Of a DNA stretch of 64,000 nucleotides, positions 29,582 to 47,718 are shown piece after piece. The position numbers and the translations under genes are program-made. This DNA is from Bradyrhizobium liaoningense (GTDB taxonomy: Bacteria > Pseudomonadota > Alphaproteobacteria > Rhizobiales > Xanthobacteraceae). The DNA lies in assembly GCF_018130785.1 (NCBI RefSeq), contig NZ_JAFCJT010000004.1:1-64000 (forward strand). The letters run 5' to 3'. The number at the start of each line of letters is the position of its first letter. The first letter of the stretch is position 1. The notes beneath the pieces were generated by a model, which worked only from the letters and a program-made list of their open reading frames with translations, was not told where the DNA came from and did no database searches.

Positions 29582-31033
<1,452 letters not shown>

Positions 31034-31117
31034 GCGGACTCCGCAAATAGACCTAGAAGCCACGTTTCTAGTCCGGTTCCTCGATCGGATCAGGAGCTCG
31101 CTTCGGGCCACTTCTCT

Positions 31118-31146
31118 CTGAAATTGCTAGATCAACTGCCTACAAT
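31118..31146 (+). promoter_or_regulatory. Sigma70-like promoter for the tRNA-like RNA
   Basis: CTGAAA (31118-31123) and TACAAT (31141-31146) are 17 nt apart. Transcription would start near 31153, about 10 nt before the first base of the tRNA-like gene, which is normal for a tRNA promoter. Confidence 0.5.
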
Positions 31147-31162
31147 TTGTCATATTGAGTTT

Positions 31163-31257
31163 GGGCCTGTCGTCTAGCGGCAGGACACCGAGTTTTATCG
31201 TAGCCTTTCGCGCTGCTTCTCATTCTCGGGACAAAGGTTCGAATCCTTTCAGGCTCG
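31163..31257 (+). ncRNA. tRNA-Glu-like RNA with extended anticodon arm
   Basis: A cloverleaf is clear. The acceptor stem GGGCCTG/CAGGCTC has one G-U pair, the D arm is GTCT/GGAC, and the T arm AAAGG-TTCGAAT-CCTTT is intact. The anticodon stem CCGAG/CTCGG encloses 32 nt instead of 7. Inside is a second stem GTAGC/GCTGC (31200-31204 and 31212-31216) with a 7-nt loop CTTTCGC, which places TTC at anticodon positions after U33. U11-A24, U13-G22 and a short variable loop lacking base 47 are tRNA-Glu identity features. No CCA is encoded. I infer a tRNA-Glu mimic, not a normal decoding tRNA. Confidence 0.7.
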
Positions 31258-31258
31258 T

Positions 31259-32227
31259 ATGTTCACACTCTCTCGGACGCCCACCTTCCGCGACTTCCAG
31301 CGCAGATTGGGCAACTGCACCTTTCACATCAACGCCGCATATGTCGGCCTCGAATGGATAGCGCGCGGGCAGGGCAAACCCGACGATTTGCGCATTAATT
31401 GGGACGTTCCCAAAAAACCCAGAGAGGCGGTCGACCAAGCGCGTCAGCTAATCCATTCAGCAATGCTTGGGCATGTACATGATGCCTTAGATTCCTATTT
31501 GCGGCAGGTGGCAGATGTTCCTTGGACACACCTTTCGTCTAATCAGCGCGACATTCTTCGGAAATCAATCACTCGACCTGGCAAAGGGGCTTATTCGATC
31601 GCAGATCGTTTTACGGAGTTGAAGCTCGAGTTAACTGACAAAGCCCAATTGGTCGATTTCGAACTAATGAGAGTGTTGGTTGCCTGGCGAAATCAGCACG
31701 TTCATGAAGGGCTAAACGAAGCTGGCGAGTTTCGTTTGCCGGACGGCGCTGAGAACGTTCTCATCGCCGAGAAGGAGATGCTAGCCAAGCGGTACGGCGG
31801 ATTCGATCCCGGGATTCTCTTCGGTCATTTCGTCCAACGGGCTGCACCGAAACGGAAGGAAATTATCGCCCTTGTATCAGCAAGCCAAAATTACGTTCGG
31901 GCTGCGGATGGCGTGCTCCTTCAGCGATCCATCACTCGGAAAGAAGATCTGGAGAGCATCGCCCGTACGACGATCAAAGAGGCTCTATGCCGTAGCACTT
32001 ATGCTGAAATCAAGAAACTTTGGGGCAAAGATACGACGGCACGAATGCGTCGATTGAAGGCTATCTTGGAAGCGGGCGGTTTTGTTTCACCTGGACCTGA
32101 AAGAGACACCCCTCTCTCATCGGCCATATCCCTCTCTACCGAGTTCATCGAAAGGTTCGCTGGCCGCCCAGTCCAGCAAGCCATCGAGATTCTTAACTCG
32201 GTGGAATCGGCAAATGTCGCTAGGTAA
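31259..32227 (+). CDS. HEPN-motif protein of the RT cassette
   Basis: The 322-residue protein is not from a family I can name. It is largely helical, and around residue 144 it has VAWRNQHVHEG, which fits the HEPN RNase motif R-N-x3-H (R144, H149). An upstream region with LIHSAMLGHVHDALDSYLRQ is also typical of HEPN bundles. Many HEPN proteins cut RNA, including tRNA anticodon loops. The ATG lies 1 nt after the tRNA-like RNA and has no Shine-Dalgarno, so the message may be nearly leaderless after tRNA 3' processing. The next gene starts 6 nt after its stop. Composition is lower in GC than the flanks. Confidence 0.75.
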   Translation: MFTLSRTPTFRDFQRRLGNCTFHINAAYVGLEWIARGQGKPDDLRINWDVPKKPREAVDQARQLIHSAMLGHVHDALDSYLRQVADVPWTHLSSNQRDILRKSITRPGKGAYSIADRFTELKLELTDKAQLVDFELMRVLVAWRNQHVHEGLNEAGEFRLPDGAENVLIAEKEMLAKRYGGFDPGILFGHFVQRAAPKRKEIIALVSASQNYVRAADGVLLQRSITRKEDLESIARTTIKEALCRSTYAEIKKLWGKDTTARMRRLKAILEAGGFVSPGPERDTPLSSAISLSTEFIERFAGRPVQQAIEILNSVESANVAR

Positions 32228-32233
32228 ATTGAA

Positions 32234-33166
32234 ATGGCGGATCTTAAATCTGGCGAGCCATTCGGGCTCGACAACTCCTTTATCGCGACCATCGACTGGA
32301 ACTTGGCTCTCCGCCGAGCGATATACGACATGCGCTCAGATTTTATATTCGCACCCCACCTAAGATTTATTTGCGGAAGGGCCGGCAAAGAGGTCGTAGA
32401 CCAACTCAAGTCTGACCTAAAATCAGGAACCTTTAGCCCGAGCGTTCCGATCACAATAGATGTGCCAAAATCTCACTGCATGCGAGTTCTTGTGCCCTCT
32501 CGACGTGGCGGGCCGCCATTCTCGCGCCCGGGCAGCATTTTGCTCCCGCCTGATCGCATTTTCTATCAGGCATTGGCCGATCGGGCTGCTCCCATTATTG
32601 AATCGAAAACTGATAAGCGCCGCTCATTTAGCCATTGGCTCGCCGAAGGCGACAGTGAAAGCATGTTCCAACCAACGAGAGCGTGCTGGAGCCGCCTGCA
32701 AAGATCTCTTGCCAAACACGCAAAATCGAAAAGCTTGCAGTACATTTTAAAGATAGACGTCGCCAATTTCTTTGGCTCACTGAATCAACATACCATGATC
32801 AATATTCTGAGCGACGCCGGCTATCCCAAGTCTCTTTCAAGCCGACTAGAGGCACTTCTAACGAGCTACACGGGTGAGCGCAGCTCTCGTGGAATTCTGC
32901 AAGGCATGTATCCATCTGATCTGCTTGGAAATCACTATATGGCGCCGATCGACGAATTCTTGGATGAATATGGGACGCCATCCGCCCGGTATGTGGATGA
33001 CATTTACATTTTCGTTGAAAGTGTCGATGCAGCAGACAAGCTACTTCGTATATTAATACCGTACCTGCGAGGGTACGACTTAGCACTAAACGAAGCTAAA
33101 TCGGTCATCATGCCCAAAGCTTCGCTTCTGACAGAGGAGCCAGACTTGGAGGCTCTTATTTTCTAA
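32234..33166 (+). CDS. Reverse transcriptase (defence-type, retron/Abi/DRT-like)
   Basis: The 310-residue frame has the RT palm motifs in order: an N-terminal block with LLPPDRIFYQALAD (about 103-116), motif A LQYILKIDVANFFGSL with D175, motif B RGILQGMYPSDLLGN with Q223, motif C ARYVDDIYIF with D255 and D256, and motif D/E YDLALNEAKSVI. There is no group II intron maturase region. The style of motif B (QG-x3-SDLL-N) is seen in Abi and DRT reverse transcriptases. It follows the HEPN gene by 6 nt. The frame ends at a TAA at 33164, but coding sense continues in the +1 frame. Confidence 0.88.
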   Translation: MADLKSGEPFGLDNSFIATIDWNLALRRAIYDMRSDFIFAPHLRFICGRAGKEVVDQLKSDLKSGTFSPSVPITIDVPKSHCMRVLVPSRRGGPPFSRPGSILLPPDRIFYQALADRAAPIIESKTDKRRSFSHWLAEGDSESMFQPTRACWSRLQRSLAKHAKSKSLQYILKIDVANFFGSLNQHTMINILSDAGYPKSLSSRLEALLTSYTGERSSRGILQGMYPSDLLGNHYMAPIDEFLDEYGTPSARYVDDIYIFVESVDAADKLLRILIPYLRGYDLALNEAKSVIMPKASLLTEEPDLEALIF

Positions 33167-33881
33167 TGCCGTCGAAGAAATATCGAAACAAGTTGATGAT
33201 ACCGATTTTAGTGCCGACTATGGATTTCAGTCGGAATGGAATGATGAAGAGGACGAAGCAGACCAAGATCAAAAAGAGGAATTGGAATTAGAGGCAACTA
33301 AGATTCTCTTCGACTCGCTCTCCGATTACCCAGGCCAAGAGGAGAACATTGAAAGATTTTGCTTGCCGCTATTCTCAAAGGCAGCCTCGGACTACGCTAT
33401 AGCTCACGTCCTTGATGCGTTTAAGAAACGGCCTTCAATGTCGCAAATATATGCGTCGTATCTCGCGAAATTCCTGGAGAAGACGGGCGTGAGCGAATTG
33501 CTTACAGAGTTGCTCGCAGACGCATCCCTTACGGATTGGCAAAAAATGTGGGTGCTAGCGGCACTCATGCAGCGCCGCCCCTTTAAAGACACTTCCATCA
33601 AGACATCTTTGAGACTTCTAAGAGATGCCACGCATCACGATGCCTTGCGAGCGATCGCCGCCATTTATGTTGGAAGATTTGGCGATCACGCCCGTCGAAA
33701 GGATCTTTTTGCAATATACCCGTCGGTGTCATCCTATATACAAGCTGCCATTTATTTCTCGTCCAGAAGTTGGCCGCCGGTTGAGCGCTCGAACGCCAAA
33801 GCCAGTTGGGGAGCTCATGGTCCGTTGAACACTCTTCTCACTACAGCAATGGCTAAGCCTATAAAGAAGCCATCTCTATAG
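33159..33881 (+). CDS. C-terminal helical part of the RT, in the +1 frame
   Basis: Frame 0 is open from 33132, overlaps the RT frame by 35 nt and reads FSNAVEEISKQVDDTDFSAD onward, through an acidic linker to an all-helical domain of about 200 residues. It has no good start codon: TTG at 33282 is the first candidate and lies mid-linker. Skipping the A at 33158 joins it to the RT as EAL-FSNAVEEI. So the RT is probably one protein of about 550 residues, broken by a one-base insertion or read through by +1 frameshifting. Helical tails like this occur in Abi/DRT reverse transcriptases. Confidence 0.6.
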   Translation, partial: FSNAVEEISKQVDDTDFSADYGFQSEWNDEEDEADQDQKEELELEATKILFDSLSDYPGQEENIERFCLPLFSKAASDYAIAHVLDAFKKRPSMSQIYASYLAKFLEKTGVSELLTELLADASLTDWQKMWVLAALMQRRPFKDTSIKTSLRLLRDATHHDALRAIAAIYVGRFGDHARRKDLFAIYPSVSSYIQAAIYFSSRSWPPVERSNAKASWGAHGPLNTLLTTAMAKPIKKPSL

Positions 33882-33907
33882 ATCCACGTCGATCGGTCAC
33901 CGCCAAC

Positions 33908-35650
33908 TTAATTCTGCAACCTCACCCCCAGCATCACAACCGTCCCCTGCGAACTCGAGCCCGCCTGGTTCGAATCAAGGATGTCGTGGCGCAGTGTGCC
34001 CTTGATCCAGATGTTGCGGTTGAGCTTGTAGATCAGATTGCCTTCGAGCGAGTAGGTTTTGTCGTTGCGGCCCTGGTTCTGGTAATCGTAGGTGCCGTAG
34101 GTGAACCTGCCGACTGCGGTGAGCCAGCGGCGGAAGTCGTGATCGACCTCGACCCCGTAGGTGTGCACCAGCACGCCGGAGGAGCCGGGGACCGTGGTCT
34201 CGGCGATCTGCGTGTCGGTGGCGAATTTCACCGTGGTGAGGCCGCTCGCGTTCCAGATCAGCGAGCCCGAGGTGAGGAAGCCCGCGAGCTGGCTGAGGCG
34301 CGGGTCGACGTAATTGCGCGCGGAATAGCCGACCGAGATCTCGCCGATGAGGATGCGCGAGAACTCGAAGGACGAGCCGACCTTCGCGTAGCCGCCGTTC
34401 GAATCGCGGAAGTAGCCGTTGCGGTCGGCGGCCTGGTCGTGCACGCGGGTGTCGCCCTCGATCTCGACGAACGGCTTCAGGCCCGGCTTCAGGTCGTAGG
34501 AGAAGCGGCCGACGCCGCCATACTGGTTGAAGTCGCGATCGCCGTTGCTGAAGGTCGAGCCATCGGTGAGCTTGGAATCGGTGTAGGCGATGCGATCCAC
34601 CGTGGCGCCGGCTGCGACCTGGAAGCGATTAAAAGTCTGGTCGAAGCCGAGCGTGGTGCCGTAGGCGGCGTAAACCGGATATTTCTGCAGGCCGGCCTGC
34701 ACGTTCGGGCTGCCGGGATTGTCGGTGGCGATCCGCAGGCGGAGCTGCGAGGTCAGCTTGAAATCGCGGTCGACGTCGAGGCGGCCGTCGACATGGCCGG
34801 TGAAATCGGGGCGGTCGATCTCGACCGGCGACGGCGAGGCGAAGCCGTCGATCGTCGCCGGCATGTTGTTGGTGTAGCCGGAGAACGAGCCGCGCAGATC
34901 GGCGACCAGCGCGTGGCGCTCCCAGTCGGACATCACGAGAAGATCGGGCGCGACGACATAGGCCGGCGAGCCGACCGGCTTGTTCAGGCGCGCCGGATTG
35001 GTGTCGTAGCCGGCGGAGAGCTCGAGCCCGCCCTTGATCAGGAAGCTGCCGGCATAGTCGCCGACCGCGCCGAACGCGTCGTCATCGACCTTGAGGCGGC
35101 GGCGCAGCGGCTGGCCCGGCACGTTGCCGGCCATCGCCGGGGCGACCGGTGTCTTGTGCGCGGTCTCGGACGGCGGCGGCGCGATGCGCGGCGGGCCAAG
35201 CGTCCTGTCCGGCGTTGCCGGCGGCACCGGCGAGCCCGGTCCGACCGGACGCTTCGGCTTCGGCTGCCCGGGATAGAGCTTGGGCTGCTGCCGCTTGCGG
35301 TTGAGCGAGTCGTAGCCGGAGGCGTTGGCGCCGTTGGCCGCCGGCAGGCCGTAGGTCGGGACCTGACCGACGCGCGAGGTCGCCGGCGCCTGCTGGCGCT
35401 TGCGCGGATCGGCATTGGGATCGGGCAGCGCCGGGAGCGCATCCGAGGGTGCCTGCGGCACGCCCGCCGTGCGGCGCGTCGGCAGCGTGTCGGGCGCGGC
35501 AAAGCCGCCGCGGTTGGGATTGAACAGGTCGGGCGTGAGGCTCTGGGCAGCCGCCGGCGCGCTTTGCAGGGCGGTCAGCGCAAGGCACGGCAAAGTCGCG
35601 CGCAGGAAATGCCCGCGTTTGCTCCGGCTCGTGCCTGGAGGCGCCCCCAC
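33908..35650 (-). CDS. Outer membrane beta-barrel protein
   Basis: The 580-residue protein has a signal peptide ending APAAAQ, a long Pro-rich linker to about residue 185, and then a beta-barrel with alternating strands (FLIKGGLELSAGYDTNP; FRRWLTAVGRFTYGTYDYQN) that ends in VVMLGVRLQN. It fits the OmpL/'outer membrane beta-barrel' family of rhizobia, whose role is unknown. GTG is the start, with GGAG about 12 nt upstream. It lies next to kdsD on the opposite strand, consistent with an envelope role. Confidence 0.82.
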   Translation of the reverse strand: MGAPPGTSRSKRGHFLRATLPCLALTALQSAPAAAQSLTPDLFNPNRGGFAAPDTLPTRRTAGVPQAPSDALPALPDPNADPRKRQQAPATSRVGQVPTYGLPAANGANASGYDSLNRKRQQPKLYPGQPKPKRPVGPGSPVPPATPDRTLGPPRIAPPPSETAHKTPVAPAMAGNVPGQPLRRRLKVDDDAFGAVGDYAGSFLIKGGLELSAGYDTNPARLNKPVGSPAYVVAPDLLVMSDWERHALVADLRGSFSGYTNNMPATIDGFASPSPVEIDRPDFTGHVDGRLDVDRDFKLTSQLRLRIATDNPGSPNVQAGLQKYPVYAAYGTTLGFDQTFNRFQVAAGATVDRIAYTDSKLTDGSTFSNGDRDFNQYGGVGRFSYDLKPGLKPFVEIEGDTRVHDQAADRNGYFRDSNGGYAKVGSSFEFSRILIGEISVGYSARNYVDPRLSQLAGFLTSGSLIWNASGLTTVKFATDTQIAETTVPGSSGVLVHTYGVEVDHDFRRWLTAVGRFTYGTYDYQNQGRNDKTYSLEGNLIYKLNRNIWIKGTLRHDILDSNQAGSSSQGTVVMLGVRLQN

Positions 35651-47205: not shown

Positions 47206-47718
47206 TGCCCAATTTCGCACGTGCCTGTGGTCGTGTGTCAGTCGGTAGGTATCCGGACAAGAGGCCGGACAGCCGCCAAGGGGTGAAGAAGCCGAGGGGC
47301 TCTTCGGAAGTGCGGAAGTCGAAAGACCGAAAGGTCGGACGAGGAAGCAAACCCGGAGCGTCCAGCATCTCTCTCAAAGAGATGCCATGTCGAAGGTGAC
47401 TTCACTTTTTGCAACCGTGACTGGCAGCCGGAGGCGAACCGGCGCACCCCGCTCTCAACGGGGGACGCGACTTAAAGCAACGACGGATCGGGCTTTTTTG
47501 GTCTCTACCGGCGGTCCAACGCCGGCGCGGGCTACTGAAAAGGCTTGTCCTTCATTGCCAGGTGTGCGGGCGGGAACAATCCCAACCAATCCACGGCAGC
47601 ACAGTCTGGTTTGAGTCTTTGGCTCGTCGCGCCTCCATCGCGCGATCTGGCCGGAGCGCTCTTATCCGACGTCATTTTTTGAACGGATCCCCGTCGCTGG
47701 GCCGTTTGGGAGAGTGCT
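47206..47718 (+). promoter_or_regulatory. speF-motif leader RNA (putative riboregulator)
   Basis: A long leader with no protein of its own lies before an ornithine/lysine decarboxylase gene, where the alphaproteobacterial speF RNA motif is known. Hairpins visible: GCATCTCT/AGAGATGC (47365-47385), CCCCG/CGGGG (47447-47463) and CCGGCG/CGCCGG (47508-47525), with a T-rich run GGGCTTTTTTGG (47490-47501). The first two hairpins share the loop bases CTCTCAA. Bases 47047-47205 hold only the likely promoter. The motif call is from memory of its place and style, not a covariance match. Confidence 0.65.

Follow-up and report, generated by a model that had tools for sequence, protein, structure and literature searches.

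A tRNA-like RNA with an enlarged anticodon arm is encoded directly ahead of a HEPN-family gene and suggests an undescribed RNA-plus-toxin module

Introduction

The leader of thrS is a tRNA-mimic operator that heads an mRNA whose product may bind tRNA. In HepT toxins, the tyrosine two residues past the motif histidine is the modified residue. AbiF is related to the origin of Cas13; by the excerpted text of PMC12373285, it is a HEPN toxin that is neutralised by a non-coding RNA lying just ahead of the AbiF gene. Excerpts of two further papers describe HepT as an RNase blocked by its MntA partner (PMC10790787) and place a modified tyrosine near the RNase site of HepT (PMC10003545). A literature search that covered few subscription papers, and preprints only as PMC copies, found no published description of a tRNA-like RNA paired with a HEPN gene; in the excerpted text of the CoCoNuT paper, tRNA-like RNA is mentioned in other senses (PMC11090510).

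Here we analyse a 64,000-nucleotide stretch of Bradyrhizobium liaoningense DNA (the window: contig NZ_JAFCJT010000004.1, positions 1 to 64,000). The original prediction, made from the letters of this DNA, was a tRNA-Glu-like RNA with a doubled anticodon arm. It missed the partner gene, ORF1, which is the key to the finding.

Results

The window RNA is a cloverleaf with an enlarged anticodon arm

The tRNA-like RNA extends from the acceptor stem to N73 (31163..31257, + strand). The Rfam tRNA model (RF00005) matches it end to end with the same coordinates (43.3 bits, E 7.1e-6), and ARAGORN calls it a tRNA-Asp of 97 nt; neither program reports it as a tmRNA, and both call a tRNA only. It has a 7-bp acceptor stem (31163-31169/31250-31256), a D arm (31172-31186), a 3-nt variable region (31230-31232), a T arm (31233-31249) and G31257 as N73, after which CCA is not encoded. 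All four stems of a cloverleaf (acceptor, D, anticodon and T) are thus present by the Rfam match, and the stems of the relatives covary. The anticodon arm is enlarged (31188..31229, + strand). A 5-bp outer stem, CCGAG (31188-31192) with CTCGG (31225-31229), covaries in relatives and encloses a 32-nt insert, instead of the 7-nt loop with the anticodon at 34-36 of a decoding tRNA. Inside the insert folds a second 5-bp stem-loop, GTAGC-CTTTCGC-GCTGC (31200..31216, + strand), with its stem at 31200-31204 and 31212-31216 and the 7-nt loop CTTTCGC; it shows two-sided changes in six type-B relatives (see below) and also reads as terminator-like, at chance level. The sequence parse and the Rfam score thus confirm the predicted cloverleaf whose anticodon stem surrounds 32 nt and an inner stem, and U11-A24, U13-G22, G1-C72 and the 3-nt variable region are all there. 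The prediction that such an RNA is unlikely to serve as a normal ribosomal tRNA was also right.

Among the 45 Rfam tRNA matches of the genome, the window RNA has the lowest score and is the sole one longer than 90 nt. Ordinary tRNA-Glu genes with UUC and CUC anticodons are present in the host, and the window RNA is therefore extra; a search for its nearest host tRNA gave no single close one. R2 and R3, two covariance models built from family RNAs, score the window RNA at 39.6 and 39.8 bits and ordinary host tRNAs at about 20-54 bits. The models do not separate the two, so the argument for the window RNA is one of anatomy and position. Its fold energy alone is only mildly better than that of shuffles (z -1.51; 15 of 200 shuffles equally good). 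Chance is excluded via homologues, not via energy, because a like RNA is kept in the same place in nearly all loci of the family, as described in the next section. Tandem RNA repeats were sought in 30900-34000 and none were found. Elsewhere in the window, 9426-9503 matches the suhB/mmgR sRNA and 47506-47663 the speF leader, both above the Rfam cut-offs.

The RNA is paired with a HEPN-type gene across loci

ORF1 (31259..32227, + strand) encodes a HEPN-family protein of 322 aa, a predicted ribonuclease, and its start codon lies 1 base after N73. The ORF1 family comprises 28 distinct loci: the window, L079-L085, L087-L095, L097, L098, L100, L101, L102/L103, L104, L106-L108, L249 and L250, all but the window found by protein searches. 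Contigs L086, L096, L105, L109 and L244 repeat L079, L081, L098, L101 and L098, respectively, and each such locus enters the count a single time; L102 and L103, which have one RNA between them, were taken as one locus. Each of the first three relatives, found by protein alone (22-28% identity), has a tRNA match directly upstream. Over the whole set, an enlarged-arm tRNA-like RNA lies directly upstream and on the same strand in 26 of the 28 distinct loci. The pairing of the tRNA-like RNA with a HEPN-type gene is well supported.

The Rfam tRNA cut-off is exceeded by 19 of the 26 RNAs, and the other seven were recognised by their anatomy and by R2/R3, models that find relatives but ordinary tRNAs too. 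Among these seven, the L104 RNA scores 26.3 bits with the Rfam tRNA model, below the cut-off; the RNAs of L083, L084 and L089 gave no match in a search at the cut-off; and those of L100, L106 and L249 are unreported even at E up to 1. L084 and L089 are among the sequences from which R2 and R3 were built, and L083, L100, L104, L106 and L249 are not. The two loci found last, L249 and L250, amount to a small blind test: an RNA lies beside L249 and none beside L250.

By R2/R3 and anatomy, L088 and L250 encode a HEPN-family protein without an upstream tRNA-like RNA. The two form one clade with full support in the protein tree, and no common sequence was seen when a shared upstream element was sought in this pair. 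The RNA-less clade may use another control. L088 has a tyrosine two residues past the motif histidine and L250 does not.

Two loci have an unusual layout. On the 5.4-kb L102/L103 contig, a single tRNA-like RNA is followed by two tandem HEPN paralogues. On a Pseudoalteromonas plasmid (L104:4989-5790) the HEPN ORF is split over two frames and the tRNA-like RNA is still there; L104 was excluded from protein comparisons because of this split. The protein tree holds 28 proteins, with L102 and L103 entered separately and L104 left out.

We compared the conservation of the RNA with that of the ORF DNA over 24 loci. Among the 47 pairs whose protein identity is >0.38, the RNA is the better conserved of the two in 46; these pairs depend on one another, and constraint is to be expected of any tRNA-like fold. 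Over the same 24 loci, distances between RNAs are correlated with those between proteins (Mantel r 0.43, reached by none of 5000 permutations; Spearman 0.26).

Two RNA types keep the fold through two-sided changes

A stem-parsing script was applied to 25 RNAs; the L249 RNA, outside this set, was parsed by eye and with R2/R3. All 25 carry an insert of 19-38 nt in the anticodon stem. The outer anticodon stem pairs at 5 of 5 positions in 22 of them and at 4 of 5 in three, counts that lean high since the script takes the best-pairing stem; in L079, L093 and L098 its stem lies one or two bases away from that of the other parse. A 7-nt loop never occurs, so the decayed tRNA named as the alternative in the original prediction, which would have a normal loop in homologues, fails.

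The RNAs divide into two types, and this division matches the split of the protein tree into two sides. Type A RNAs are mostly CGAUUA...AAA (12 aligned RNAs, plus the similar L104, L107 and L108). Type B RNAs have CUUUAU/A, a hairpin and a UCAGA-like stretch, and their divergent members are the window, L083, L100, L106 and L249. In the 12 type-A RNAs, 93.2% of cells are paired and 13 of 21 pairs show two-sided changes; one T-stem pair is unpaired in 8 of the 12. In six type-B RNAs, 99.4% of cells are paired and 12 of 26 pairs show two-sided changes, including three of the five inner-stem pairs. For both types, none of 500 shuffles matched the cells paired, the two-sided changes or the covariation score; further pair types, one of the five covariation measures, was reached by 62 (type A) and 60 (type B) of 500 shuffles. 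Homologues with co-varying pairs in the inner stem, proposed as a check on the prediction, were thus found among type B RNAs. As a kept feature the inner stem holds for that type, whereas in type A, which has no constant inner stem, it is absent, weak or different.

The inner loops argue against a decoding role. The other 24 parsed RNAs all differ from the window in inner-loop sequence, and mostly in length too; loop sequences are alike within clades and different between clades. No anticodon is common to the 25 RNAs and UUC is not conserved: the UUC inner loop, from which a tRNA-Glu displaying UUC had been proposed, occurs in the window copy alone. Nor did the proposed Glu identity extend to the family, since the Glu-like D arm is common to some relatives only and others are Gly-like (GTGT) or generic (GCTC). 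CCA is encoded directly past N73 in 10 of 25 RNAs. ARAGORN, run on 24 module loci (two of them duplicates), labelled the RNA Ile, Asn or unknown in 12 and overlooked it in other loci.

ORF1 has a HEPN motif and a predicted HEPN fold

No clear family emerged for ORF1 when it was searched against Pfam, PADLOC, NCBIfam and the sequences of the PDB. We aligned 23 family proteins, which are 16-25% identical to ORF1. None of the 23 departs from W143, R144, N145 and H149 (window numbering), and the family thus carries the R-x4-6-H motif of HEPN proteins; R-polar-x-x-x-H is described as the signature of HEPN RNases in the excerpted text of PMC12373285. The Pfam family HEPN_RiboL-PSP touches two of the 23 rows (E 5.5e-4 at best), stays below its cut-off for L107 and L101, and does not match the window protein. 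At E up to 1 the 23 rows match 13 Pfam families, of which Abi_2 is not one; PADLOC matches none of the rows, and the ToxN profile has no match in the family.

The AF2 model of the window protein has a pLDDT of 84.5. Foldseek found nothing for it under E 0.001, and VIA returned weak mixed rows in which a number of HEPN proteins occur (Z: Roquin ROQ 5.4, Csm6 4.9, HepS 4.5, Las1 4.3 and the unrelated LGN 6.0). The model of a type-A relative, L092, has a pLDDT of 91.1, and its best VIA matches are HEPN toxins: 6m6u_H (Z 10.7, rmsd 3.1 Å over 127 residues), 5yep_C (10.4), 7ae6_A (10.2), 6m6w_B (9.6) and 7ae8_A (9.2). These five rows are HepT/HEPN toxins aligned over 127-144 residues with rmsd 3.1-4.4; further rows are Csm6 (7.0), another HEPN toxin (6.9) and an unrelated row, also at 6.9. 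In VIA, chance alone can bring helical models up to about Z 13, but every one of the five rows above Z 9 is a HEPN toxin, and this and the conserved motif argue for a predicted HEPN fold in the family, as read from the model of this relative. The solved AbiF structure is in neither VIA list (window and L092 models), an absence that is uninformative. The window protein sits on a long branch (2.77) in the protein tree. Because of this branch, the lack of a clear fold match for its own model and the split of the neighbouring reverse transcriptase gene, the window copy may be decaying.

Promoter and start codons

A sigma-70-like promoter, CTGAAA-17-TACAAT (31118..31146, + strand), precedes the RNA. 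It is the sole promoter-like site in 30950-34000, where shuffles average 2.5, and is weak evidence alone. The best-scoring -10-like hexamer stops 5-11 nt short of the RNA in 18 of 25 loci (16 nt in the window). The promoter signal is modest: 15 of 25 loci reach p <0.1 against mononucleotide shuffles, with a median of 0.08. No terminator-like site was found between the window RNA and ORF1.

In one clade (L079, L080, L087, L089, L091, L092, L094 and L095), an in-frame ATG or TTG lies inside the insert in 8 of 8 members, and the frame reads through the T arm. An SD-like stretch (AGAGGA, AAAGGA, AAGGGG or GGGA) precedes this in-loop start by 4-9 nt, and several members have a further in-frame start candidate elsewhere. 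Members of the other clades have their start codon downstream of the RNA, and several loci show an SD-like stretch ahead of that start (scored by eye).

The window copy is an acquired insert

The promoter-like site, the tRNA-like RNA, the HEPN gene and an RT gene lie in an acquired insert of 2.86 kb between gltD and the next gene (31037..33899, + strand, ends approximate). The gene order is gltD, tRNA-like RNA, 1 base, ORF1, 6 bp, UG20 RT. The gltD end has matching DNA in each of 60 same-genus genomes, the source genome among them, and the insert is absent from 11 of 11 same-genus loci. In 10 of these 11 non-self loci about 170-195 bp lie between the flanks (window ~31036 and 33900); the 11th, L113, has a different insert of about 1.28 kb at the same site. 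No tRNA match was found at the site downstream of gltD in any of the 11 relatives lacking the module, and the window RNA therefore arrived with the cargo. The L113 insert (L113:1834-3111) contains a 362-aa ORF without a clear Pfam family, and the site appears to be an insertion hot spot.

The RT gene next to ORF1 is a candidate defence RT of the UG20 group and lies outside the conserved pair. Its N-terminal part (32234..33166, + strand) matches PADLOC RT_UG20 (PDLC03758, E 3.9e-131) with one TAA inside the match. The rest (33141..33881, + strand) covers profile positions 278-511 in a second frame. The gene is thus split in the window, and is a single open frame in the relatives L031 and L032. 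We also considered the RT as the partner of the RNA and rejected it. All five UG20 relatives lack such an RNA and lack ORF1, over 1.5 kb of upstream DNA for L031 and L032 and 5 kb for L061-L063, and no RT relative was found in the DNA around 27 other module loci (two of them duplicates).

The module is rare and scattered

In the class sample, 4 of 289 genomes have a member of the ORF1 family; in the phylum sample the count is 4 of 398 and in the family sample 3 of 296, with the source genome included each time, and these samples may overlap. In the class of genome G719 the count is 1 of 369, namely G719 itself. The module is thus rare and scattered. Named hosts are mostly Alphaproteobacteria, with Gallionella, Shewanella, Chlorobium and Pseudoalteromonas in addition, and two copies are on plasmid records. 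Mesorhizobium (L095), Sphingorhabdus (L084) and Hoeflea are among the hosts.

Scans of IMG/VR for A1, A5 or A6 yielded three distinct module copies besides L098; phage records searched with two queries contained no module. RNAs lacking the gene were sought in IMG/VR by two pattern scans, which returned at least 120 stretches and 6 stretches, the 16-base type-A pattern matching mostly by chance. Checked with R3, 80 of the at least 120 stretches and all 6 of the others gave one real match, the L098 contig again, and one weak match, L192 (21.5 bits).

Defence genes lie near some module copies: Ppl in L083, a type II restriction enzyme in L089 and the UG20 RT in the window. When 10 neighbour proteins were scanned singly against PADLOC, seven had no match and one a weak match only. 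On a Sinorhizobium plasmid (L082:5426-8804), an ApeA-like HEPN defence gene and a RES-domain gene lie downstream of the module. The MNT antitoxin was not among the best 25 of the 84 Pfam families of 96 neighbour proteins.

Discussion

Taken together, these results suggest that the tRNA-like RNA and the HEPN gene form an undescribed RNA-plus-toxin module and not a broken tRNA. Our working model, to which we assign a probability of roughly 0.45, is that a tRNA-shaped RNA keeps a HEPN ribonuclease toxin in check, with a logic like that of AbiF. The RNA and the HEPN gene would be transcribed together, probably from a promoter just ahead of the RNA, and host tRNA-processing enzymes would free the RNA from the transcript. 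As a tRNA mimic with a remodelled anticodon arm, the RNA would bind the HEPN protein and hold it inactive. If the RNA were lost or altered, for example when a phage stops host transcription or attacks tRNAs, the nuclease would be released and would cut cellular RNA, which may amount to a role in defence. HepT-type toxins act on tRNA ends, and a tRNA mimic would thus be a natural inhibitor.

A more ambitious form of this model, possible in our view but doubtful, makes the tRNA mimic both the antitoxin and the gate of the toxin mRNA, and RNA-controlled toxins would thereby gain a new class. Before HEPN translation or in competition with it, the cloverleaf would fold and be matured by the tRNA-processing machinery, the start lying in the RNA (one clade) or just past it, and phage-disturbed tRNA metabolism could directly tip the balance towards the toxin. 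The start codons also bear on a simpler scheme, in which the HEPN protein, with tRNAs as its substrates or ligands, binds the tRNA mimic that heads its own mRNA and represses its own translation, as a cis-acting operator with no trans RNA. The in-loop starts make this rival a serious one: all eight members of one clade have an SD-like stretch and an in-frame ATG or TTG in the enlarged loop, and with the window start only 1 nt past the RNA, translation there must be affected by how the RNA folds or is processed. On the other hand, the encoded CCA in 10 of 25 RNAs and the intact features of elbow and acceptor suggest that the 3' end is matured, a step for which an operator has no need, and the other clades start after the RNA, several behind an SD-like stretch. 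We consider a purely cis-acting role rather unlikely. Cas13 also joins HEPN domains to an RNA, and the sensing logic of anticodon nucleases is a parallel. The RNA could accordingly be a cofactor that the HEPN protein needs, a guide, or a decoy tRNA whose cleavage or modification by a phage switches the HEPN protein on. The sequence of the enlarged loop varies between clades, as a sensing or sensed part might; however, there is no repeat array, and the loops of close relatives are alike where a guide would vary freely, which leaves such an activating role improbable.

Three further explanations fit the comparison poorly. Other defence RTs use non-coding RNAs, and the 6 bp between ORF1 and the UG20 RT place the RNA and the RT in the same apparent operon in the window; the RNA as primer or template partner of the RT is nevertheless largely refuted, and very improbable, since, in the DNA covered, RNA and ORF1 are missing from the five UG20 relatives and the RT from the surroundings of 27 other module loci (two of them duplicates). 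tRNA genes are common insertion sites and the neighbouring RT is split, as might be expected around an ordinary decayed tRNA or an attachment-site remnant. Yet the RNA is kept in 26 loci from several proteobacterial classes and Chlorobium, its stems are held by two-sided changes, and the empty site has no tRNA in any of the 11 relatives, so that decay is refuted as far as comparison can do so and scarcely credible. Least probable of all is a working decoding tRNA, of Glu or of frameshift/suppressor type: the Glu-like D arm and acceptor features of the window copy would suit it, but the 25 parsed RNAs never have a 7-nt loop and share no anticodon, and normal tRNA-Glu genes exist in the host.

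Should the inhibitory model be correct, this would be a HEPN module with a full tRNA mimic as its partner RNA. With AbiF there would then be two cases, apparently independent, in which a small RNA and a HEPN nuclease go together. It would allow the origin of RNA-bound HEPN toxins, and tRNA metabolism as an infection sensor, to be tested. AbiF is the proposed root of Cas13. Annotators may file RNAs of this kind as odd tRNAs.

How does the module compare with known systems? Like thrS-type operators, it has a tRNA-like fold at the head of an mRNA, but its RNA is a complete cloverleaf, with CCA in 10 of 25, ahead of a nuclease-like protein. It shares with tmRNA (SsrA) a tRNA-like body and a translated frame, which in one clade starts at the anticodon-loop position; unlike tmRNA, it keeps a full D arm and anticodon stem, and the frame encodes a separate protein. 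Type III toxin-antitoxin systems (ToxIN, AbiQ, CptIN and TenpIN) likewise have an RNA gene ahead of a ribonuclease-like gene, whereas the module has no tandem repeats, no ToxN match and no terminator-like site separating the RNA from the HEPN gene, and its RNA fold is another. With type VII HepT-MntA it shares the predicted HEPN fold (L092 model, Z 10.7-9.2 over 127-144 residues). The protein of the ORF1 family is, however, larger, with extra helices, its conserved neighbour is an RNA, and a tyrosine two residues past the motif histidine is present in only one of 23 family rows (L088).

The closest parallel is with AbiF and the abiF RNA (RCd22; Rfam RF03085). There too, by the excerpted text of PMC12373285, a non-coding RNA lies directly ahead of a HEPN protein with R-N-x-x-x-H, in a mobile and defence-linked setting. 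RF03085 is not among the Rfam matches of the window or the module loci at the thresholds used. The ORF1 family matches neither Abi_2 nor any PADLOC model, and the module RNA is a tRNA cloverleaf and not the motif repeats of abiF. The best reading is thus that the RNA fold and the protein family are both new relative to AbiF.
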